A stretch of 64,000 bases of DNA from Pyrenula massariospora. Taxonomy: Eukaryota; Ascomycota; Eurotiomycetes; Pyrenulales; Pyrenulaceae. Shown here piece by piece: positions 1,572 through 42,100 of this stretch (positions are counted from its first letter, which is position 1; every line of letters starts with the position of its first letter). Made by a program: the position numbers and the translations under genes. Location of the stretch: assembly GCA_021030905.1 (NCBI GenBank), contig JAGFMI010000003.1, forward strand, positions 248,001 to 312,000. Direction: 5' to 3'. The notes beneath the pieces were generated by a model. It searched no databases. It saw nothing but the letters and a program-made list of their open reading frames with translations, and was not told where the DNA came from.

Positions 1572-2258
1572 TTCGATGTAGATAGTCCAGATTGAGAGCA
1601 TGTGCAGAACCTCAGGAAAACAAATTTTTAAAATTGTCGATGATGGATTGGGCGACTTTTAAAAGAAGCCCTCCTTTCGGATTTGAAGAAAGTGACTCAT
1701 GAGGCTGAAAAAGACAGAGAACCCTGTCCAATATTTGCAGCAAATCGTCGAAAAAGGCTCAATTGCCCGCTGTTCGAGCATCTGTGACACCTACCTAGGT
1801 ATTTGTCCATAGAAAATCTATCGACGATGAAAGGACCGAGAGAACAACAGAGAGAACAGAGCACACTACTATGGTCTTAGCACCAAGATCGCTCACTTTG
1901 CGAGGTAGGGTGACAGAAGCCATGGTTGATGTTTTGCCCCACACCACACCAAAAATCGGCCACGATTTCTATCACCTTGCCTTGTTGGGGCGTTAAAGCA
2001 TGTCGGATTTACACTCACCCCCAATTTTATGTGCTTCACGAATTCCACTGCTATGTCCACGTCTTGACGATCTTTAAACCAACGCTTAGATTTCCAGCGT
2101 TGCAGGGCTACTATGAAAAAGCGAGGTTCGGCAAATAGTCTCTGCCAGATCCTCTTTCGCCTTTCCGCAAACATTTTCAATCGAAGCTGACCGTACACGC
2201 GGAGGTAGAAACCTTGGGAAGAAGCGATTGGTTAACAGAGAGATGCCAACAAGGCTCA
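1572..2258. other. intergenic, contains one MITE-like element
   Basis: Between the start of the F-box-like gene and the 3' end of the transporter. Apart from the inverted-repeat element at 1909-1976 I see no gene; small ORFs here overlap that element and show no recognisable protein. Confidence 0.5.
1909..1976 (+). mobile_element. MITE-like element, copy A (68 bp)
   Basis: It starts GGTGACAGAA and ends in TATCACC, imperfect terminal inverted repeats of about 14 bp. The core contains CCCCACACCACACC. Copy B at 61766-61836 matches end to end when reverse-complemented, including the core, while the flanks do not match, which defines the borders. Internal length is far too short to encode anything. 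No clear target-site duplication is visible. It could instead be a conserved hairpin RNA or regulatory palindrome. Confidence 0.5.
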
Positions 2259-4435
2259 TCAGATTTTCTCGTCTTCTCCTCCAAATGAGTTCGTTCTCCC
2301 GGCCGGCACAGCCCCAACATCAAGGCTTAATCCCCTGGCAATGCTCCCGCTCCTTTTTCCCACGCTGCCACCCTCCATCTCTCCAACAACATCTTCTCCC
2401 CTCCTCGCTGCGCTCACCAAGTCTGGATTTTGTTCCTTCAGCAATTTGAAATTTCTCTCTGCTTCCCAGTTCCAGATACTGTCTGAGGCGAAGAGGAGGT
2501 TCATCTCTTCAAGAGTCCGCTGGTTAGATTCGGGATAAAGGGCCCAAACCATGGGGATGGTGAGCGCATTGCACGCAGCAAATATGTAGAGCGTCTTTTC
2601 TTCAAGGGCATTGAACATCACCGGGCATAGCAGGGTCTAAGACGAGACAGTCAGCCAATGGTTTCCAAATCGAAAACCTTAGTCGGCAAAAGAAGTAAAA
2701 AAGGTGACAGCTTACCAACCACCCATTCCCAATACTCCAACCTACAACCCCCCAGGCATTGCCCTTGGCCCTGACCTCCAGCGGAAAGATCTCCGCCGGA
2801 TACAGCCATGGCACTGTCAACCACGTTGCGCCGAAAGTGAAGGTAAACAAGAACACCATGCTGACTGCTCCAATGCCGTAGCTGTTTGACTTTGAGGAGC
2901 CATCAGGGGCATCGAGCGCGATGCGGGAGAAGCCGCCGGCGAGAAAGAGCGAAATGCCTTGCAGGACGGAGCCCCAGTATAGCGTCCAGCGGCGTCCGAT
3001 CCGGTCAAGAGTGAAGACACATACCAGGGTTGAGAACTGCGGAAAGTAAGTATGATATTGGAAGACGAGAGAAACGGGAATTGGCACCATATAGAATATG
3101 TCGTTGAGCCCGGATATCCACTGTACGCGGTTATGCGGGACTTGTCGTTATCAGTATAAGTAGGTTCTTCAGGGCTAGAAGACATATTTACCTCCAGCTA
3201 TGGCGAAAATGCGAGGTGCATAGATAGTGACACCTGCAATGCCAATCCATTCTGTTTTCAATTCGCATCAGTCTGCTGCGTAGAGATTTTCTATACCAGA
3301 GGTCCGTACCTTGCATTATCTGCAACCAAATGACCAACTGCACCCTCCGCGCCGTGTGCAATTTCCCACTCCCGATGCCAAAGAGCATATGAAAATACGA
3401 TTGCCTTTTGGCGGTCTTGTGCTCAAGCTCGACGGTATTCCGGATATCTTGGAACTCTGCTTCAGCCTTGACGATATCTTCGCCGGAGTCGCCTCTGAGC
3501 CGCCCTAAAACGTAACGAGCTTCGTCATCTCGACCAACCTTGGTGAGCCACCTTGGCGACTCTGGAAAGAACCAGACGATGCCGAAGAGGAAGAGTAGTG
3601 GAAGAATTTGGAACGCAATGGGAAAGCGCCACACAAATTGTCCGCGACCGTCGCCGTAAAAGCTACACCCACTATCCTTATGTGAGAATGTTGTAACACG
3701 AGGCCATCACCGTTGACTCACTACTCTAGCCAATATGCAACAACGACTCCAAAGATATTCAACGTAAACTCAATGGAGATGAATTGACCACGGCTAGTAT
3801 GCTCTGCCGTCTCCGTAGCCCAGACAGGGACGATAGCATTGAGGATACCGGTTCCCCAGCCGTTGATGAGTCGAGCTGCGTTGATAGTCAGGCTGATCTG
3901 TCGCTCACAAGACGACTTTAGGGATGGGATTTCTGACCGCAAATCATCCAATTTCGATTTTGAGCCGAAGTCTGCAACGAAGCTCCAAATACGCCCCAAG
4001 CTGCTCCAAGCGCAATTGTCTTGATACGACCAAACTTGTCCCCAAACCAGCCGCCAGCGAGGCAGCCGACCAAAGTTCCGAGATAGTAGACCGAAACCTG
4101 GTCCCTGTCAGTGCCGCGCCATTTTATAGAGACCTACGGATGAGCCAACAATGCCCCCTTGAAGCAGAGCGTCCTGCACGATCGGCTCATGAGTCTTGGG
4201 ATCTTCGACGCCAAATCCCATTGTTTTGTGGTAATAGTTGTAGGCACCGTTGACGCCGCCCATCATGCCTTGATCTGTAGCGTGGTACTGCTTCAGTAAT
4301 AATCCAATTCGCTATAGGGTGGCACTGACCATATCCGAAGAAGAAGATCGAAAGCCCAGCGACACAGTTTATCGCAATGAGAAGACTCCGCTTGCGAAAC
4401 CGGTGAACGACATTGTACCTGGATATTTGGTCCAT
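2259..4435 (-). CDS. MFS sugar transporter (hexose/STL1-like), 9 exons
   Basis: A 12-TM proton-coupled sugar porter of the plasma membrane by family. Exons on the minus strand: 4435-4330, 4274-4150, 4097-3938, 3875-3722, 3671-3310, 3251-3192, 3140-3088, 3036-2716 and 2636-2259, giving 572 residues in one frame. Family signatures are all present: FFFGYDQGMMGG in TM1, GDKFGRIK in loop 2-3, PESPRWL after TM6, DRIGRR in loop 8-9 and PAEIFPLEVRAKG in loop 10-11, then YPESNQRTLEEMN at the end. The substrate cannot be told from sequence. Introns are 50-79 nt; the one at 3037-3087 has a weak donor (GTGCCA). The start at 4435 (MDQISRYN) is the first ATG in frame with TM1. I see no break in the gene. 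Confidence 0.88.
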
Positions 4436-5048: not shown

Positions 5049-5081
5049 GACAGAATGGCCGAGCGGTTAAGGCGCGGCACT

Positions 5082-5131
5082 GTGAGTTCAACTATGCCAC
5101 GAAGGGCGATCAATAGCTAATTGCTTTGCAG
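5082..5131 (+). other. spliceosomal-like intron inside tRNA-Leu, between U33 and C34
   Basis: Fifty nucleotides starting GTGAGT, with a GCTAAT branch-site candidate and a TTTGCAG acceptor. This is the size and signal set of the protein-coding introns in this window (many of 46-55 nt). Removal rebuilds the anticodon loop exactly. The position, directly 5' of the anticodon, is not the canonical 37/38 tRNA intron site, and the sequence shows no obvious bulge-helix-bulge for the tRNA endonuclease. Confidence 0.75.
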
Positions 5132-5135
5132 CAAG

Positions 5136-5166
5136 TCATCAGACTTCCTCTGAATAAAGAGGCGAT
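5136..5166 (+). other. canonical tRNA intron (31 nt) after position 37
   Basis: Located between G37 and T38 as expected for nuclear tRNA-Leu(CAA), which carries an intron in yeasts too. The sequence AAGTC at anticodon/intron start pairs with GACTT inside the intron, and CCTCT pairs with AGAGG further on, giving the anticodon-intron helix that the SEN endonuclease recognises. Confidence 0.8.
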
Positions 5167-5210
5167 TTGCCGTGTGGAAACACGCAGGGGTTCGAGTCCC
5201 CTTTCTGTCA

Positions 5211-5959
5211 AATCATTTTTGTTGAACCTGATATCTTTTTTGGACGTCTTAAGCGCCAGTAGGTGCGAGGATCTAATCGCACTCAATTCGAGGGGGTATA
5301 GACGAAGCCGGTGGACTGTCAATCCCACAAGCCTTGCCCCTTTCTTCTCGCAACGGAGATCATTTTCGATGATTTTCTAGTCACCGCGATGCATAAATAG
5401 ATCTCAATAGCACATTACACTTTCAATGAGTTTACTTGTGTGATGGGTTGAGAGGTTGACCCCCGAGACCCCCTGAGGAGCCCGCGAAACCTTCCTAATT
5501 TGGAAGGGTTCTTGGCACACCTTTACCTTATGCGCCTGTACGCACAGCTCTGTGATCCTTCATAGCTGAATATTCGTAACATCGACTCATATTCATAGGC
5601 CTTTACCCCTAGAGAGCGATTTATTACAACTTGCACCCAGACACACAATGTAGAGGTGCTCTGTCTAGAATAGGACATAATGCCTTTGTCCGGTCCTTAG
5701 CTTATGAAACTATTGGCTTTGTCTGGGCCACAAAAACCATCCTACATGAAATACTTTGAGGAGCGGACAACAAAGCAGTGAGATTCCTTCTTACGCTAGG
5801 TATAAAAACCATCGGAGTAGGTTCAGAATCCAGACTTCCGATTTGGTAGAACTCAAAGAGATTTTGAGGGAAGACGAGAAAAAAAGTGAGCGAGCTATAC
5901 AATTGTAAGTCAAAGCGTACTCGAATCCATCTTTGGAGACAGATCTCCTCTGAGTCGCC
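5211..5959. other. intergenic; T5 Pol III terminator at 5216
   Basis: The T5 run at 5216-5220 just after the tRNA is a likely Pol III terminator. The rest holds no gene I can support. Confidence 0.5.
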
Positions 5960-31898: not shown

Positions 31899-34800
31899 AT
31901 GGCGTCTTCTCTCTGGAGCCGGGCGGTGGCGGAGCTGAGCGAAAAGGATCAGCGAATGTTCAAAGTCGGAAGCGCCGACCAGCATCAAATCCTGCGTGAT
32001 ATTCTCTCAGCAGTCGAGGGGCAGCGTGATCGGTGTCAACGAGGTCGTTGGAAGGTGCGGCGCCGTAACGGGCAGGAGATCATTGTCCGGGATGTCTGCG
32101 CAAAGATCGTCGCATGCGTCAAGAAGTTTATGAGCGTAGTCGATGTTGCTGTGTCATTTGATCAAGTGCATGCTGCGCTGCCATGGGCTGGGGTACGGTT
32201 TATATTGCAGGTGAGAGAAAGAAAGAGAGATACAAAGGTTCTGCTGGTAGAGAGGCGTGAAAGCTGATCAATGACGTCCTAGCTGTGTGTCAACAGCGCA
32301 GAGGCATTCGACGCCATGGTTGAGGGCTTGGAGAAGGCGTCGAGCATGATTGCTCGCTGTGCCATCGTCGAGTCGCTTTATCTGCATGGCAGTCAGTCGG
32401 ATGCGCAAAAAGCGCTCGAAGGTGAAATCGGGAAGCTATATGGAACTATACTCAATTTCCTTTGCAAGGCAAAGAAACATTACGACAGCACGCTTATGAG
32501 TAAGATTTGGGCCACGATCCAGCACGTATATACTGACAATCTTCAGAACGCGTCGTGAATTTGACATATAGACAGAACCTCGAGGATGCTGTCAGATTGA
32601 TGGATGAAGCGGAGGCAAGGTTTCAGATGCAGAAGGGCCTTGTCGATGGAGAGAGTTAGCGACCTAGTTGAGATGATAGATCCATTATACTAAGTCTTGT
32701 ACAGGGATCAAAAGCATTGACGATACCGTCCTGAACGCTAACCTAGTGGTGAGAACGACGAATGATGAAATTAGCGAGGTGAAAGGTTAGTAGCTCACAG
32801 CCAGACCGCGAAGTCCTGTTGACTCCCTTGCAGCAGTACAGGAGCGGCTAAAAACTACATTGCTGCAACTGGAGAAGCCTATCGTTCGAACCGTGGACCA
32901 AGTATCTAAGATGTATAGTGCTCTGAAAGGTACTGCTCCACTGCGCAAATTATACGCCAGCTTGACTGATTGCGAGAAGAAACCGAGAGAGTGAACCTCC
33001 TGAAGTGGCTCTCTACGATACACGTCCAGGAACACTACAAAGCCGCACTGGCATCCTTGTTGCCAGGCTCAGGTGAGTGGCTACTGACAGGACCTAGCTT
33101 CACCAGCTGGAGGGACTCGAGTGCTACCGAGACATTCTGGTTGCATGGTATACGTGAGTGAAAGCAGGTGCAAGTGCTGGGGAATTTATGCTAATAGTAT
33201 GTGTAGCTGGTTGCGGCAAGACAAAACTCACGTGAGTCATGTTGAAAGAGCCATCAGCGGTGTTGTAGCTCATTAGAAAATAGTACAGCAGTAATCAGGC
33301 ACATGCGACAACACGGTGGTAATCTCCTTCAGGCAGTACCGATTGCTCATTTCTACTGCTCCAGGAACCCTGCTGAGCCAGAGCGTGGCGATGCACATCA
33401 GATAATGAGATCTTTGGTCAAACAGCTTTCCTTGAGCAGGGATGATGAGTATGTACGGCGTCCGACATTAAATGAGCATAAGAAAAAACGACAAAAAGCA
33501 GAACATGATGGCGAAGCTCCAGGAGCTCTAACGATAGAAGACAGCGTTCGAGTCTGCCTCGAGCTGGGCCGAACGAGTCCAGTGATAATCGTCATTGACG
33601 CCGTGGATGAGTGTGACTCACGGCAACGTGCTCTGCTCCTATCAGCCCTGAATGAAATATCTTCAAGATCTCGTGATATCGTGAAGATCTTTGTTTCAAG
33701 TCGAGATGAAGAAGATATTGCAGCATACTTTAGACACGGATCGACTGTCAGAGTAACAGCTAGAGCCAACACGGACGATCTCAAACGATTTGTCGAGGAA
33801 AAGACTGGTAGTTTCATACAGACCTGGTCTACAACGCACGATGAAACCGCGGAAACGCTACAGCATCTCAAGAAAGAGATCATAGAGACTCTTATGAAAG
33901 GCGCGCAAGGAATGTAAGCTTCTTGAAAATAAGTCATGAAGGCCTTCGCCATATTAAATAAATCATCTTAGGTTCCTGTGGGCCACACTACAACTAGAGG
34001 CGATTAGCGATACGGAGCGGATCAAGGACAAAAATGACATCTCGCTAGCTCTGGCATCTTTGCCCTCGACACTAAGCAAATCGTACGAGGCGATATACAG
34101 TCGAATCCAGTCCATGGGAGAGAAGGCTAAAACAGTGGCGACCCTAGCGCTTCATTGGCTCCTTTGTTCTCGGAGAACACTTTCGGTCTCCGAGTTCATT
34201 GCTGCTGTTGGAAGAGCATCAAGCGATCTTTCACCAAAGTCAGTCCTCGACTATTGTTGCAATTTGATTGTTCTGGATAGTGACGCAGATTCATTCCATC
34301 TATCACATCCCACTGTGAGAGAGTATGAATTCACCTAGTCCAATTCTAGAAAACCAACTGACAATTGTTTCGAGGTACTTCGAGTCTCTTGAAAGTTTCT
34401 CTATGAATAATATTCACTTCACTTTAGCTGAAAGATGCTTAGGCACTTACCTTTGGGGAGAATCGGGCGAGGACGGCCTTTTGAGCTATTCTGCACACTA
34501 CTGGCCCGCTCACTTGGAATATCTGAGAGACTCTGCGCAGAGAGCTGCTATTAATCCTCTACTGATAGATTTTTTCACTCAAGAGGAACACTTCGAAGAT
34601 TGGTTGGAACATGTCAATGACCTGCCAGTTGGAGAAGGCTCCAACTGGAGTAATAGTCTAGAGAGAAAGCTTGACGCCTCGCTAAGCTCACCACCGTCTT
34701 CGCTGTTCGTGATCTGCTGCTTCGGGCTCATCGAATTGCTCGAGCAACCTATAATCCGCGATCAACTTGATTTGGAGCAGAGAAACAAGCACGATACCTC

Positions 34801-37800
34801 CGGTCTATACCTGGCTGCACGGTGGGGCCATACGAAGGTAGTTTCGGAGCTGCTGAATCAAGGCGTGGACATGGAATCTCCAGGATTTCAGTATGGGACT
34901 GCGGTACAGGCGGCCGCATCCGCTGGCCATGATGATGTTGTCAAACTTCTCCTACAGAGCGGAGCTTCCACCCGAGGTGCCGGTGAATTCTCGAGTCCTT
35001 TGCAAGGAGCTTTGGCAAACGGCCACAAATCGACTGCCGAGGTTATGCTGGATGACGATTTTAAATTCTCGGAGCAAAGCCAATTTGACAAAGCTCTAGA
35101 GACAGCAAGCTTCATGGGCTATGTGGACATCTTGCAACGGTTACTGGACGGCCAAGCTGGAGATTTTGCACCAAAAGACCGCCCTGACCCTCTCCAAGTC
35201 GCCCTGTATGGTGGTAAAGCGAGAAAAGCGGCGCAGTTATTGCAGAAATGCACTGACATCAACGAGGAGAAAGGGTACTTCGGCAACGCTCTCCAGGCTG
35301 CTATAGCCGGAGGAAAATGTAACCTTGTGAAGAGTGTCGTCGAGGCCGGCGCCAAGCTTGACCGACGTGGACGTTTCGGCTATCCATTGCGAGCCGCTGC
35401 AATTGCTAACAAAATCGATGTTGTCACGTACTTGCTAGATAAAGGGGCAAATCCAAACGCAGAAGATGGTGAATTAGGAGATGCTCTGCAGGCGGCTGCG
35501 TCCCAGGGCAACTTAGACATCATGACACTCCTGCTAGACAACCATGCTGCTGTCGAGGGACAAGGCGGGTTTTTCGGAAACACACTTCAGGCGGCTGCCT
35601 TCGGAGGCCATGACCTGGCTGTGCACCTATTGCTAGACTATCGACCATATAATGAGTGGAACGAGTGTGGTCGGAGAGGTCGATATCGCGATGCCTTACA
35701 AGCTGCGGTTTATGCAGGACATTCACATCTTGTGGGACTCTTGGTCGAGAAAGGAGGTCAGCTTAATCCAGGCCGCTTTTGCAGGGCCTATCCGTGTGGT
35801 ATGAGATCTGAACCAAAGCGCATAGCACTTCCAGGGGTTCGCGAGCGGCGTGGACAATTTGACATCCCGTACGAGCTAGGTCCGCTTGAGATCGCTGCCC
35901 GCCATGGGAACGTTGGACTCATCCGCATACTTCTAAGCAAGGGAGCTCGAGTCGATGCCCCTGATGCTCCCTGGGAAGATGGTGAACATCAAACCGGCTG
36001 TGCCTACACTGCTCTGCAGATTGCTGCATTCTGGGGACACGTCGCGGCAGTGGAGTGTCTTCTGGACCATGGAGCTGATCCCAATGCAGTGCGCCAAACG
36101 CTGGGCACGCCGCTACAAGCAGCCCTTGAAGGCTCGAACCTCGACATTGCAGACTTGATGCTTGCTCGTGGTGCACGAATCGACGAACGCTGGACAGTTT
36201 TTGGATCTTGCCTACAGGTCTTTTGTGAAAGGGGCGATATTCGGGTCGCCGAGTACCTTCTCAACAACGGGGCATGCATCGAAGACGGTGGAGGTCAGAA
36301 CGGTAATGCGTTGCAAGTTGCCAGTGATGCTGGCCAACTTGATGTCGTTCGTTTTCTACTTGACCGTGGTGGTACTGATGTTAATGCTCCGGGAAAATCC
36401 AATGGCAGCGCGCTGCGAGCTGCATCAGCAAGCGGACATCATCGTGTGGCTGAGCTACTACTCGATAACAATGCGAAATTGGATGGCAACGCAATAATCA
36501 TTGCTGCGGCTCACGGCCATGAAGAAGTGTTGCACCTTCTTCTACGAAGAGCAGCTATCACCAACGGCATGACGCATTTAGGAGACGGTGATGCCTATTC
36601 TGGTGGTGTTGATGTCTTTGACAATGAAAAGGATGCCTCCGCAGGAGGAACATCTGTTCGAGCGACCGCGCTACATCAGGCGGCTTACTATGGCCACAAG
36701 GCCATAGTATCCATTCTAGTCGAGGATTACCAAACGAACGTGCACCTCGAGCACAAAATGCCCTCCATCCAGTCGGGCACTCTTGATCAATGGATGTACG
36801 ATGGACGATCTAGCAACGCCATGTTCGCGGCATGTTACCAAGGCTTTGCGACCATTTCCACGCTATTGTTCCTGCACGATCCTTGGGGCTACGTCAAGCG
36901 GTCGACGTTCGCACCCGCGCTTGAGGTGAGTCTTGCTTGTAAGCGGGAAGAGGCGGCAGTAACGTTGGTTCATGAAGCAATTGGCTTAGGCTTCAAACCA
37001 GAGGACTTCGACTACTCATTCAAATTCGCCTGTGAAAAGGGCCATGCGTACTTCGTTGACCTATTACTGAACTATTTTCCGCTGACTTATTGGCCAAGCG
37101 GTATGCTGCAAGCCGCCACAGCCGGGTACGGCAACTGGATCGAGGTGATCCGGATCTTGGTCACAGCTGGAGCTTGTGTAGATGGTCTGCAAGGCAAAAG
37201 TAACGATCTAAGAAGGGCAATCGCGGAGAATGGACGGGTGGAAGTTTTTGAGCTATTAGAGCGTCGCGGGTGCTGTTTATTCCCAGATGCTGCAAGCTAT
37301 TCCGAAGCGCTTTTGGCAGCATCCCGGGCTGGACAGGCCCAAATGGTCCGTCATCTATGTGGAAAGCGCGTTCCAGGGCTATCGGACGTTCAAGAAGCCC
37401 TCTTGGCAACTAGCAAAGGTCCTACGGACAACGTGGAAGTTGCAAGAGCACTATTGAGTCTCGATGTGGCTCTAGCCTGGGCCGATAATGAGCCCCTCCG
37501 GACCGCCTGCGAATACGGCCACACAGAGATCGTTAAGCTGCTTCTTCAGCAGGTCCAACATGATATGAGCGCCATTGAAGTTGGTCTGGAAGCGGGAGCA
37601 ATGCAGGGCACATGGAATGTGTTCGAGGAATACTTGATTTCCTGGACAAACGGATTGACCGGTCGGAAATCTGCACGCGAGTCCTTCTGCGGTGCCTGCC
37701 CTTTGGACGGTGTGGAAAGGAGCTGACGGACTATCTGCTTAGTCAAGGTGCTCAGCCCAACACTCGCAATTCTGATGGGCAGACAATGCTATATATTGCC

Positions 37801-38382
37801 GCTAAGGATGGGTATTGGTGTACTGAAGATCTAAGAGCTCTTTTACAATATGGGGCAAATCCGAACTTGAAAGGCAGCGATCACGGAACTGCTCTACATG
37901 CAGCTGCTGAGTCCGGGTCGGCCCTCGCTTCCCGACTGCTAATTGACGCCGGCGCAAATGTTGACACCAATGACGGTCACTACGGGACGCCATTGATGGC
38001 AGTGATGGCGCAGAGGTGGCGATTCTCGTGCTTGGCCTCGATGGGGATTGGAGAAATTGACGACCGGAGCTGCCATCGCTGCTGCGCACGCATTCTGCTC
38101 GATTCCGGCGGCGATTTTGATGCTCAGAGTGGCTTCTACGGTATGGCCCTCCAGGCAGCTGCCAAAGCTGGAAATTTGAAGGGCGTCGAGATGCTTCTAG
38201 CAAGAGGAGCAGATGTCAACCTCCGCTGCGGCGAGGATGGCAGTGCGCTAGCCGCCGCCAGGTCTGGCGATTGGCGCAATTGCGACAAGTGTTATTGGGA
38301 TAAAGAGCTCCCTAAGCCGGAAAAGGGGTGCAGGCACATCATCCAGCTCTTACTTGATGCGGGTGCCACGGATACATCGTGA
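31899..38382 (+). CDS. NACHT-ankyrin NLR-type protein with an apparent frameshift near its end
   Basis: Ten or more exons. The first ten start at 31899, 32283, 32547, 32705, 32834, 32977, 33207, 33284, 33972 and 34375; exon 10 runs to about 37.6 kb. The N-terminal 100 residues (WSRAVAELSEKDQRMF) match the fungal NACHT-associated N-domain. The NACHT domain follows: Walker A PGCGKTKLT is split over two introns, Walker B is VIIVIDAVDECD, then KIFVSSRDEEDI. A winged-helix-like part with HPTVREYFE leads to roughly twenty ankyrin repeats from about 34.8 kb to the end. At about 37.61 kb the ankyrin reading frame shifts: one frame ends at 37726, while the next one carries the repeats on to 38382. Family role: cytosolic sensing, incompatibility or cell death. 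Confidence 0.85.
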
Positions 38383-39162
38383 GTTATTCTGAGTATCGTA
38401 GCTTAGCGTTACGAATAAGCTTTCCTGTCACATGCGTGGAACAAAGACGACAGCTTATTCAAAGATACGACAGCCATTCATTAGCCGATTAGTAGAATAA
38501 AGTTGACTGTGGTAATTACATCAAAGATGTTGACAAGCCCTTGAAGACATGCATAAATATACTTGGATTGATGCCTGTTGCGCATGGAAATGCCATCCAT
38601 ACTGATAATAGACTCTACAAAGCTCACATCGAGACATAAGCATTCATAAAACGAACGACCGAGATCTATGGTAGCTCCCACAGTATATCAGATGCGCTCT
38701 TAGACGTACCTGGCTCTTGTGGCGTTTATCGCTTGCTGCACAGACGAATGCGGGACGCGAGAGGCACTCCCATTCCGCGAAGTTTGGTAACTGGGGTATA
38801 TTCGGATACTCATCGTACGATCCGGGCTGGCTGAAAGGCACGAGACGGTATCAATGAAACCCGGGACTCGCCAAAATAGGAATCTTAACGGGGGCTGTAT
38901 GGCCCATCTGCATGGATTGCACAATCTCTCGTCTAGCTTTTCTGTAAAATGAAAGGTAATTAAGCAGCTAAATAAGATACAGCATCACCTCGACATAAGG
39001 AATCGCGCGCGGTACCTATACGCCATAGGAAGCACTTTGGTTCGTCTTTGCGGTCTGGCGTGTCCAAATCTGGCGAATAGTCATCGCGAACGATGTTGAT
39101 GCATTCACCACGAGTCGTTGGGCGCTGAGAAGAGCTTTGCCGTATTGGAGTCTCATCATTCT
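38383..39162. other. gap between the two converging NLR genes
   Basis: Contains the 3' ends of both genes. No gene or repeat seen. Confidence 0.5.
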
Positions 39163-42100
39163 TTACGTCTTTCCATGGCCCTCTGAGCTCCTGATGCTCT
39201 TAAGTTCAGCAAGCGTTGACTCCGACTTGAGCCGATATGGATGTGTCTCAGGCAATGTCGTTTTCCTAATGTTTACAACATGTTGTAATATATCCACCGC
39301 CTTCTCGACTTCCCCTTTCTCTCCGTAGGATTTCGCAAGCCAGTGTTGCGATATCAACTGCCTCGGGTGGTCCTCTGCGAGAGTATCTCTTTGTATTTCG
39401 ACTACTTTCTCTAACAGCATGATGGCCTTTTCACACTGTCCGCTGACTAAATAGACTCGAGCGAGCTCATGTTGCGATGCTAGCCGATTGGGGTGGTTCT
39501 CTGTTAGCGTGTTCTCTCTGATATTGACTACTTTTTCAAACAGCTCTATCGCCTTTTCACTTTGTCCACTTTCCGAATAGGCTCTCGCAAGCTCGTGTTG
39601 TGATGATAGTCGATCGGGGTGAATTTTGGTCAGCGTGCTAGCTTGGATCTTGACTACCTCTTCAAACAGCGCCGTCGCCTTTTCAATCTGGTCATTTTCC
39701 CGGTAGGCTATAGCGAGCCGATGCTGCGAGGCTATTCGACTAGGGTCAGTTTCCGGCAGCGTGTTTTTGCGGATCTTGAACAATTTTTCTAGCAGTGATA
39801 TGGCCTGCTCAATCTGTGCGTTCTTGAGATATGTCATCGCGAGCGCGTTTTGAGTAAATAGTCCAGCTTTGTGAACCTCTGCTTGTGTGCCTTCTCCGAT
39901 CTTAACTATTTGCTCGAGGAGTTCAATCGCCTCTTTATACTTTCCGGCCCATCGAAGGCTTTCTGCTCTCAGTTCGTACAAAAGCAAATATTTCTGCGAC
40001 GGTGTCACGATATCGATTTTGATCGCTCTGAAAATGTCCTCTAGAAGCCTCTCAAGTCGCTCGTCCTCTCTTATCGATGTCAGTGCCCACCCACACCCAA
40101 CTAAAAGTGGTAATTCTGCGCCGTCTTCATCCCGGAAAACGTTAGTCTACTATTTAAGCCTCGGGTTTTGGGACTCGACAAAGTACCTTTGAGTTTGAAC
40201 CGGATACCATTCTCGACTATGACATTATCGAGGTAGGCAAGTACATGAGGTCGTAATTGCCTCGGCTGGCTTCTGTAAAGGTCAGAATTAGATCCAGAAA
40301 GTGCGATAATACACCCTGTCATTATCCTTGAACAATCTTGTTGCTCTGCATCCTGGCGATCTTTTGCCCACGCATGCGCTAATGGATGCATTGAAATCAT
40401 AGAAGATTCGTCATTTCTTAGTAAAGAAAGCGATTTGAGTAAAGCAATTGCCTCGCTAAGACGAAATGAGTTCCCCTCCTCATCTTGTACCTGGATGAAG
40501 TTAGGAAGCCGAGAGACGTGCCAGTGACCCAATTTAGTGACATCTTGTGTATCTGAATCTTTATCATATTGTACAGAAGCGATTCCCTCCCAGGCTTCTT
40601 GAAACACCTCAACGGGAAGTGAACCAAACTGAAGCATTGACAGGATGTTTAGCAGCTCTAATGCAAACGTGGCAACATCAGTATGTGAGCATTCCAGGAT
40701 CTCAGCAGACGCCTCAAATGTGGCGTAAACATCACCGTATCTCGATCGCGCCTGCTTTGTTCGATATTTCAGAAGTCGAGCTCGCTGTCGTTGGTAGACT
40801 TCCACGTATTTGTCGAATGAACAGTGCCCCTGGGCAACATACGCACCAGCCTGGATCAGGGCGAGCGTGTGCGCCTGTAATAGATTGGAGATCTCCCTCG
40901 CCTGCGTCTGGTAAGATGGCCATTGGTCCTCTGGAATATTCGCAGCCTTCAGCAGAAGCTGCGTCGAGTACTTCAACTCAAGCTGTTCAAGTACTTCTGA
41001 CCCGATTGTGCTATATCGAGCACATTCAGGATTACGAGATGTCATAATGACTGTGCCCTGACTACCTGGTGGGAAAAAGCATTGATAATCAAACTCTGGA
41101 TCATCAGCATTATCCAAAATAAGAAGCCAGCTTTGCTTAGTATTCGCAAGGGCTTCTCTAGCATCTTTAAGACGTTGAGCCGATAGACCAAGCTTCTTAG
41201 CAACAGCAATAAAGTCTTCCTCGGCGGTCGAAGAATTACTAACATCGACCCAAAACAGACCCCAGAATCTGGTATCATTAGCTCGGCACAAAGCATACTC
41301 CGTGAATCAGCTCACTCGTCTCGAGCTACATCCGCAAGCTTGATGCAAAGTTCACTTTTGCCCTGTCCCCCATCTCCAGTAATGACAAACCTTCTTTGCC
41401 CTGGGTAACAATTCTTAGGTCTGCATATAGCATCATGTATATTTTGGACCAGCCCTGTCCGTCCGGTAAATATTGGATTTAGCATTCTGGGAATGGCAAA
41501 ATGCACGTTCCTCGTTACAGGAGAAACTAGACATGGATCAGTGCTGTGATGTCTAAAGTGAGCTATAATTACATGTTTGAAGCCCCGTAGGCCGCATGTT
41601 GTATTTCTATTCTACGTAAGCTTTACCTAGATGATATCCTGAGATAAAGTAGGCTTACGCGTAAAATGGAGGCCAGTTCACCATCGGCTTTGTCTATTGG
41701 AGTTGGTTAGAAGAAGACATCTCATTCAACAAAGCAGCGTTCCAGGATACACACTTTGCTTCTGGCTCAAATTCTCTGCGCAGTCACGTATTCGAAATTT
41801 TTGTTGAGTATGCCGGAGATACTCGTCGGTGACCGATTCAATGACCCCTCGTTTCTTATATTCGTCTAGTCTGACATCTTGAAGGCCTTGCTCAACGTTG
41901 AAGCGAAAGTAGCGCTTCATATCAAAATGTTGACCCCATCGAGAGATAAATTTTGTTGCAGTATTTTCCGTTTCAACCGCCATTCTGACTAACGTTTGCG
42001 ACAGAAACTTGAACAAGTTATCATCGATTGCTTTTTTACCCGCATGGCCTGTTCCAATCGAAACGAAGCACTTCACCAGGGGTTTCAAGTCACGAGATTC

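Follow-up and report, generated by a model that had tools for sequence, protein, structure and literature searches.

The genome of the lichen-forming eurotiomycete Pyrenula massariospora contains, within the stretch of 64,000 nucleotides analyzed here (the window), a leucine tRNA gene that is interrupted twice, and the question raised by this locus is which machinery removes the first of the two interruptions. Introns of tRNA and introns of mRNA are kept apart in textbooks and are removed by separate machines, and to our knowledge the spliceosome does not act on tRNA. The reading preferred here, with a probability of roughly 0.87, is that the insertion at 5082-5131 is a short U2-type (major) spliceosomal intron in a nuclear tRNA gene of the Pol III type, because the internal promoter boxes are intact and a T-run follows the gene, because the length and signals of the insertion are like those of introns in U6 and mRNA, and because its removal contributes to an exact restoration of tRNA-Leu(CAA). 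The features of the locus are as follows.

5049..5210, forward strand: tRNA-Leu(CAA) gene, unspliced, 162 nt including discriminator A73 at 5210 (Rfam RF00005; ARAGORN after removal of the introns)
5049..5081, forward strand: exon 1, with the 5' strand of the acceptor stem, the D-arm, the 5' strand of the anticodon stem, C32 and U33 (sequence, cloverleaf)
5056..5066, forward strand: A box TGGCCGAGCGG, internal Pol III promoter, intact (sequence; pattern match at C27:253056)
5082..5131, forward strand: spliceosomal-type intron, 50 nt, at 33/34, donor GTGAGT, acceptor GCAG (sequence, ARAGORN)
5117..5121, forward strand: branch site CTAAT, presumed branch A at 5120, 11 nt from the intron end (branch-site scan)
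5132..5135, forward strand: middle exon CAAG, anticodon CAA plus G37 (ARAGORN)
5136..5166, forward strand: canonical tRNA intron, 31 nt, at 37/38 (ARAGORN; 5-bp anticodon stem outside)
5167..5210, forward strand: exon 3, with the 3' strand of the anticodon stem, the long variable arm, the T-arm, the 3' strand of the acceptor stem and A73 (ARAGORN)
5189..5199, forward strand: B box GGTTCGAGTCC, intact (B-box scan, C27:253189-253199)
5216..5220, forward strand: TTTTT, first likely Pol III terminator (T-run count)

The stretch 5049-5210 scores 44.3 bits against the Rfam tRNA family (RF00005, gathering score 29), and at gathering scores the whole window has two tRNA matches and nothing else in Rfam; a self-splicing intron (group I or another type listed in Rfam) was rejected on the latter result. 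A sequence-only reading of this DNA had placed the two insertions in the gene, and its borders are exact to the base (5082-5131, 50 nt; 5136-5166, 31 nt). Once both are deleted, ARAGORN finds the leucine tRNA that had been claimed, a tRNA-Leu(CAA) of 81 nt whose variable arm is long and whose discriminator is A73; once only the 50-nt block is deleted, it finds tRNA-Leu(CAA) interrupted at 37/38 by a standard intron of 31 nt. The joints of the 50-nt block at 5081/5082 and 5131/5132 are fixed, neither being shiftable by one base. Because neither insertion breaks the anticodon stem, ARAGORN reads the full sequence as tRNA-His(GTG) with one intron of 81 nt, which would combine a histidine anticodon with a body of the leucine type. 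This output would be taken at face value if the gene encoded a leucine-type tRNA with anticodon GTG, purposeful or decoy, and a single ordinary intron of 81 nt, but such a reading is hard to credit: body and anticodon disagree, and the genome would be left with no Leu(CAA) gene among those found. The ten interrupted genes listed below, when submitted to ARAGORN unspliced, are likewise assigned an unfitting isotype in six cases, no tRNA in two and the right isotype in two (Ser(AGA) and Arg(ACG), the latter with a 48-nt intron proposed by the program unaided), whereas after virtual splicing nine of the ten are assigned the expected isotype (Leu(UAA) is called Lys). A single long intron is also inapplicable to the introns that lie in the D-loop, at 26/27, in the anticodon stem, in the variable arm and in the acceptor stem.

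The insertion at 5136-5166 has the properties of a canonical eukaryotic tRNA intron, a substrate of the SEN endonuclease: it lies at 37/38, and all five pairs of the anticodon stem form directly outside it. The anticodon-intron pairing that had been claimed for it (AAGTC/GACTT) is present in the predicted fold, with the qualification that the minimum-energy fold of the one-intron intermediate partly differs, part of the anticodon stem being paired with the D-arm instead. The insertion at 5082-5131 differs in position (33/34) and in stem geometry (three of five pairs in the canonical outer stem), and a bulge-helix-bulge at its joints would have two of four central pairs, one of three outer pairs and one of three inner pairs. 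Ten ordinary tRNA introns from these and other genes are 12-32 nt long and none of them is GT-AG; the 5-bp anticodon stem lies directly outside 10/10 canonical introns versus 0/12 spliceosomal-type introns (best 4/5 pairs, in two), a stem count that is partly true by construction, as the borders of the canonical introns were set on the outer stem, which does not apply to the contrast in length and ends. A full central bulge-helix-bulge helix, sought in one fixed geometry, occurs in none of the twelve spliceosomal-type introns, a count of little power because canonical introns in this genome (four correctly bordered ones) lack it too.

That limited power is one of the two points in favor of removal of both insertions by the tRNA endonuclease, the first as a non-canonical intron resembling a bulge-helix-bulge. 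The other is that non-canonical introns, several per gene and at many scattered positions as in P. massariospora, are known from tRNA genes of archaea, nucleomorphs and red algae such as Cyanidioschyzon (PMC4090602). The introns of those organisms are tied to the bulge-helix-bulge and the endonuclease. Removal by the endonuclease is nonetheless very unlikely, given the poor pairing at the joints of the window's intron and the absence of the outer stem and of the full central helix from all twelve introns: unlike the introns of those organisms, the ones in P. massariospora have splice-site and branch signals (and the strict motif, in a test of limited power, is not found in them), the endonuclease leaves their GT-AG ends, branch sites and size of 47-52 nt unexplained, and introns of the same build are present in the U6 gene. 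We know of no instance in which U6 is a substrate of the tRNA endonuclease.

Spliceosomal removal of the 50-nt insertion, in turn, is consistent with its signals. The donor GTGAGT, the branch site CTAAT and the acceptor ending in GCAG that the sequence-only reading had named are all present, GT and AG stand at the exact joints, and length and signals resemble those of mRNA introns of this genome, as expected of a U2-type intron. A CTRAY motif whose branch A lies 8-13 nt before the intron end is present in 8/12 tRNA introns (including that of the window), 3/3 U6 introns and 4/11 mRNA introns, compared to 90 of 4,970 (1.8%) GT..AG segments taken at random from this window at lengths of 45-55 nt, and a GTRNG donor is present in 9/12 tRNA introns, 0/3 U6 introns and 5/11 mRNA introns, compared to 10% of random GTs; as the twelve tRNA introns were first spotted partly by eye for splice signals, these enrichments are not clean probabilities. 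Branch sites are weak in the 26/27 intron of Leu(AAG) (CTAAA), in Gly(GCC) (CTTAT) and in the acceptor intron of Ser(AGA). The best branch sites of the U6 introns lie 10-11 nt, and those of the mRNA introns 10-21 nt, from the intron end. The eleven mRNA introns of the window, which were located at gaps in homology to proteins of Pyrenula and other organisms and whose borders were set by eye, are 46-79 nt long (eight of them 46-55 nt) and have similar signals. Among the window's proteins compared with their closest named relatives, which are from Pyrenula, a Pus4/TruB protein has 56% and a sugar transporter 84% identity, and a PTM1-like protein has 88% identity among named relatives and 94% to its best match. 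Elsewhere in the window (34319-41306), a large ankyrin-repeat reading frame lies near TPR-repeat and weak NB-ARC-like reading frames, an arrangement resembling a fungal NOD-like receptor region.

The U6 snRNA gene (L049, C27:330471 onward, forward strand), located approximately 18 kb past the end of the window, has three introns of 49, 49 and 51 nt with branch sites CTAAC, CTAAC and CTGAT, and its joined exons make a well-formed U6 that is followed by a T-run. Another U6-like locus (L048, contig C11) has no interruption and differs in sequence. No intron was seen in 5S genes, at least five of which were among the matches listed, all full length (47 of 1,812 candidates scored), and an RNase P RNA gene of 354 nt was found.

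The insertion in Leu(CAA) is one of twelve spliceosomal-type introns in ten of the approximately 37 nuclear tRNA genes recovered (our own tally, from an incomplete census). They are 47-52 nt long, eleven being GT-AG and one GC-AG, and lie in the D-loop, at 26/27, in the anticodon stem and loop, in the variable arm and in the acceptor stem, as listed here by gene.

Leu(CAA): 33/34, 50 nt
Leu(UAA), gene Leu(TAA): 33/34, 47 nt, GC-AG
Ser(CGA): D-loop after GGTTAAG, 49 nt
Ser(UGA), gene Ser(TGA): D-loop after GGTTAAG, 47 nt
Ser(AGA): variable arm, 52 nt, and acceptor stem, 49 nt
Arg(ACG): single intron, anticodon stem, 48 nt
Gln(CUG), gene Gln(CTG): 31/32, 48 nt
Gln(UUG), gene Gln(TTG): 31/32, 47 nt
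Leu(AAG): 26/27, 48 nt, and acceptor stem, 47 nt
Gly(GCC): 35/36, 49 nt

The interrupted genes were found by pattern and B-box scans followed by inspection of the surrounding regions, and isotypes were read by eye for genes on which ARAGORN was not run. The tally of approximately 37 consists of 23 genes from a tRNA family search, which scored 63 of 1,116 candidates and did not have the window gene among the matches listed, and 14 others; 18 family-search matches on contigs C25 and C26 were excluded as presumably mitochondrial. The B-box pattern GGTTCGANYCC occurs at 97 places and GGTTCAANTCC at 68, all of which were examined, belong to known loci or are on C25/C26; of the remaining 50 places with GGTTCAANCCC (215 minus 97 and 68), 13 were examined. 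These patterns leave out T-arms with another 52/62 pair, and the stem and A-box filters applied to B-box places can miss tRNA genes that are split more heavily. Genes for tRNA seem to be few in this genome: GGTTCAANCCC occurs at 215 places versus 253 for a reversed-pattern control. A Lys(CTT)-like gene (L052/L193, C3:627728-627865, reverse strand; isotype by eye) has at 33/34 a 48-nt block of the form GTGAGT..GCTAAC that ends in TTTG and is without AG. Possible readings are that it is mutated, dead or uses a non-AG acceptor site; it was counted among the approximately 37 genes and not among the ten interrupted ones.

Several other observations were made in the course of the census. Position 73 is T in spliced Arg(ACG) and in both intron-bearing Gln genes (L096, L063, L051), which is unusual for Arg. 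Four loci left out of the tally, L111 and L112 (C29:281265 and 282059, reverse strand, 0.8 kb apart), L088 and L097, have both promoter boxes and an acceptor and a T stem that pair, but no convincing tRNA was seen inside any of them (L111 and L112 having also been scanned), and they are possibly tRNA-like RNAs or tRNA-derived elements. L172 (C28:1899208, reverse strand) is a tRNA-like gene without a spliceosomal-type intron. C25 and C26 look mitochondrial, and six tRNA matches on C26 are in mirror-image order, which suggests that the assembly of this contig is palindromic.

The junctions were compared with alternatives by a cloverleaf score that is blind to splice signals, a fairer test than the signal enrichments, applied to all deletions of 30-80 nt (1,733 to 3,875 per gene) after excision of the acceptor-stem introns from Ser(AGA) and Leu(AAG); as the genes had entered through a look at GT-AG ends, the scan is a test of the junctions, not of the choice of genes. 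For four introns no deletion scores better and exactly one of the tied deletions is GT-AG: Ser(CGA) (0/3,212 better, 7 tied), Ser(UGA) (0/2,906, 7 tied), Arg(ACG) (0/1,733, 2 tied) and the 26/27 intron of Leu(AAG) (0/3,263, 5 tied). Few deletions score better for Gln(CUG) (1/2,345, 10 tied) and Gln(UUG) (3/2,396, 5 tied). Structure by itself settles neither Leu(CAA) (5/3,875 better, 1,517 tied), Leu(UAA) (5/3,569, 93 tied) and Gly(GCC) (4/3,314, 97 tied) nor the variable-arm intron of Ser(AGA) (71/2,396, 30 tied). The scan of Leu(CAA) is indecisive because the intron sits in the anticodon loop; the junctions of Leu(CAA), Leu(UAA) and Gly(GCC) are decided by the match of tRNA body and anticodon. 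For the two acceptor-stem introns, counting the intron itself, 7 and 6 among 408 deletions give an equally well paired stem; 4 and 3 of these have the right discriminator base as well, and among the latter one is GT-AG in each case.

The Leu(CAA) gene also has the organization of a Pol III gene, with both boxes, a T-run terminator and no internal T-run longer than three. Internal T-runs in the ten interrupted genes do not exceed four, which is weak evidence because 10,110 of 11,600 segments of 152 nt have no run of five or more. A T-run of at least five starts 1-21 nt downstream in nine of the ten genes (at +68 for Ser(CGA)), compared to a background of 385 in 18,276 stretches of 26 nt. In Ser(AGA) and Leu(AAG), the terminator T-run lies beyond the acceptor intron, and therefore a Pol III transcript would contain that intron.

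The interrupted genes might instead be pseudogenes hit by insertions while intact copies do the work. Intron-free copies were found for Gln(CUG), Gln(UUG), Ser(AGA), Leu(UAA) and Gly(GCC), so some of the interrupted copies could be dead; the interrupted Gln(UUG) gene has an acceptor mismatch (score 5 of 7); and with 63 of 1,116 tRNA candidates scored, further copies may be unseen. As a general explanation this is highly unlikely: random insertions would not be GT-AG, 47-52 nt long and base-exact, and the window gene has seven acceptor pairs and five T-stem pairs as well as both boxes and a T-run behind it. Moreover, no uninterrupted copy of Leu(CAA), Ser(CGA), Ser(UGA), Arg(ACG) or Leu(AAG) was found within the limits of the census. 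A search for Leu(CAA) genes without the 50-nt block, which had been proposed as a check with the sequence-only reading, found no second Leu(CAA) gene by pattern scan, by BLAST or among the B-box places examined in the incomplete census, and BLAST with the spliced Leu(CAA) sequence at E up to 10 matched the two large exons of the window locus only. The same reading had named an assembly error as a possible objection; nothing was found in its favor, and with the pattern repeated at ten loci with splice signals, in what is likely an Illumina-based SPAdes assembly of a mycobiont culture according to the part of the source publication concerned (PMC8809443), the probability of an artefact is negligible.

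The window locus has no second DNA match in the rest of the genome (37.8 Mb, 33 contigs), and a repeat or introner family was rejected on this result and on the lack of clear similarity between the introns outside their signals. Three isoacceptor pairs share an intron position (Leu at 33/34, Ser in the D-loop, Gln at 31/32), and the similarity of their introns has z values of -2.1 for Leu, -1.3 for Ser and 2.6 (weak) for Gln; the best z among all 325 pairs of introns compared is 3.8. With positions shared and similarity weak or absent, the introns of these pairs must therefore be old or else have been acquired two times at the same position.

The spliceosomal reading is not without precedent. 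The mRNA-type intron in the U6 RNA of fission yeast, a Pol III transcript, is established, is spliced as such and is thought to have arisen by reverse splicing, as summarized in part of PMC10484740. The U6 introns of Schizosaccharomyces pombe and other fungi are like that of Leu(CAA) in being short, in having a branch site and in occurring in a Pol III transcript, and differ in that the host RNA in P. massariospora is a tRNA with a second, unrelated class of intron in the precursor. Spliceosomal introns are present in the rDNA of lichens such as Cladonia grayi, and yeast removes one of 57 bp from a Pol I RNA, according to sections of PMC8527467. These are also ectopic short spliceosomal introns in a structured RNA of a lichen mycobiont, although they interrupt multicopy rRNA genes transcribed by Pol I, whereas P. 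massariospora has them in low-copy tRNA genes of the Pol III type. The precedent in lichen rDNA that the sequence-only reading had cited thus holds but is too narrow, as it extends to U6 in fission yeast and, by sequence, in this genome. Fungal U3 snoRNA has spliceosomal introns in a small structured RNA that is not a tRNA, and a 2017 paper singled out U3 and U6 as the only small structured RNAs in which interruptions were known to be frequent (PMC5832005). The string "spliceosom" does not occur in the searched text of the tRNA-intron review (PMC4090602), and in the portions seen of papers on permuted tRNA (PMC3978253) and nucleomorphs (PMC4494063), spliceosomal introns are mentioned only in protein genes or apart from tRNA. 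Judging from listings of open-licence literature other than preprints, no published report of spliceosomal introns in tRNA was recognized. The precedents for such introns are U6, U3 and rDNA.

The presence of two intron classes in one tRNA gene, one spliceosomal-type and one ordinary, as first proposed for this locus, is supported by the twelve introns in ten tRNA genes and the three in U6, and processing of one pre-tRNA by two splicing systems is the best reading, with splicing inferred from sequence. Pol III is predicted to produce a doubly interrupted Leu(CAA) precursor, from which the major spliceosome would excise 5082-5131 in the nucleus as a lariat at A5120, in the way that it processes U6 in fission yeast; the SEN endonuclease would then cut the one-intron pre-tRNA at 37/38 and tRNA ligase would join the exons, and the same scheme should apply to the nine other interrupted tRNA genes of P. 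massariospora. As for the origin of the introns, a guess is that excised introns were inserted into Pol III transcripts or genes by reverse splicing. The sequence-only reading had also held that the spliceosome must act first, its intron disrupting the anticodon loop that SEN measures. The order stands as a requirement for the correct product, with a refinement of the reason: neither intron interrupts the anticodon stem, so SEN might still cut the unspliced RNA, and a premature cut placed by its ruler would fall 4 nt inside the first intron and yield a leucine-body tRNA with anticodon GUG, and therefore the spliceosome is needed first. In yeast the tRNA endonuclease sits on mitochondria, and the spliceosome is in the nucleus. 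By analogy, the order could be enforced by place (nuclear spliceosome, mitochondrial endonuclease) beyond any failure of recognition.

Taken together, the genes suggest that spliceosomal introns have probably invaded a fraction of the Pol III genes in the lineage of this lichen fungus, such that the supply of tRNA-Leu(CAA), tRNA-Arg(ACG), tRNA-Leu(AAG), tRNA-Ser(CGA) and tRNA-Ser(UGA) would depend on the spliceosome, and for most of them on two unrelated machines acting in a fixed order. A tRNA that needs both machines would show that the spliceosome is able to act on tRNA precursors, and would offer a natural system in which to study the ordering of two splicing machines and a view of intron gain in structured RNA; the known cases of rDNA and U6 make this claim directly testable. 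Such introns would also account for the genes that tRNA finders overlook or mislabel in genomes of this kind. For the organism, splicing in the wrong order at Leu(CAA) would produce a leucine tRNA with a histidine anticodon, and splicing capacity would set the supply of tRNA and the rate of translation, a possible tRNA counterpart of the role in slow growth and desiccation tolerance that has been proposed for the rDNA introns of lichens.
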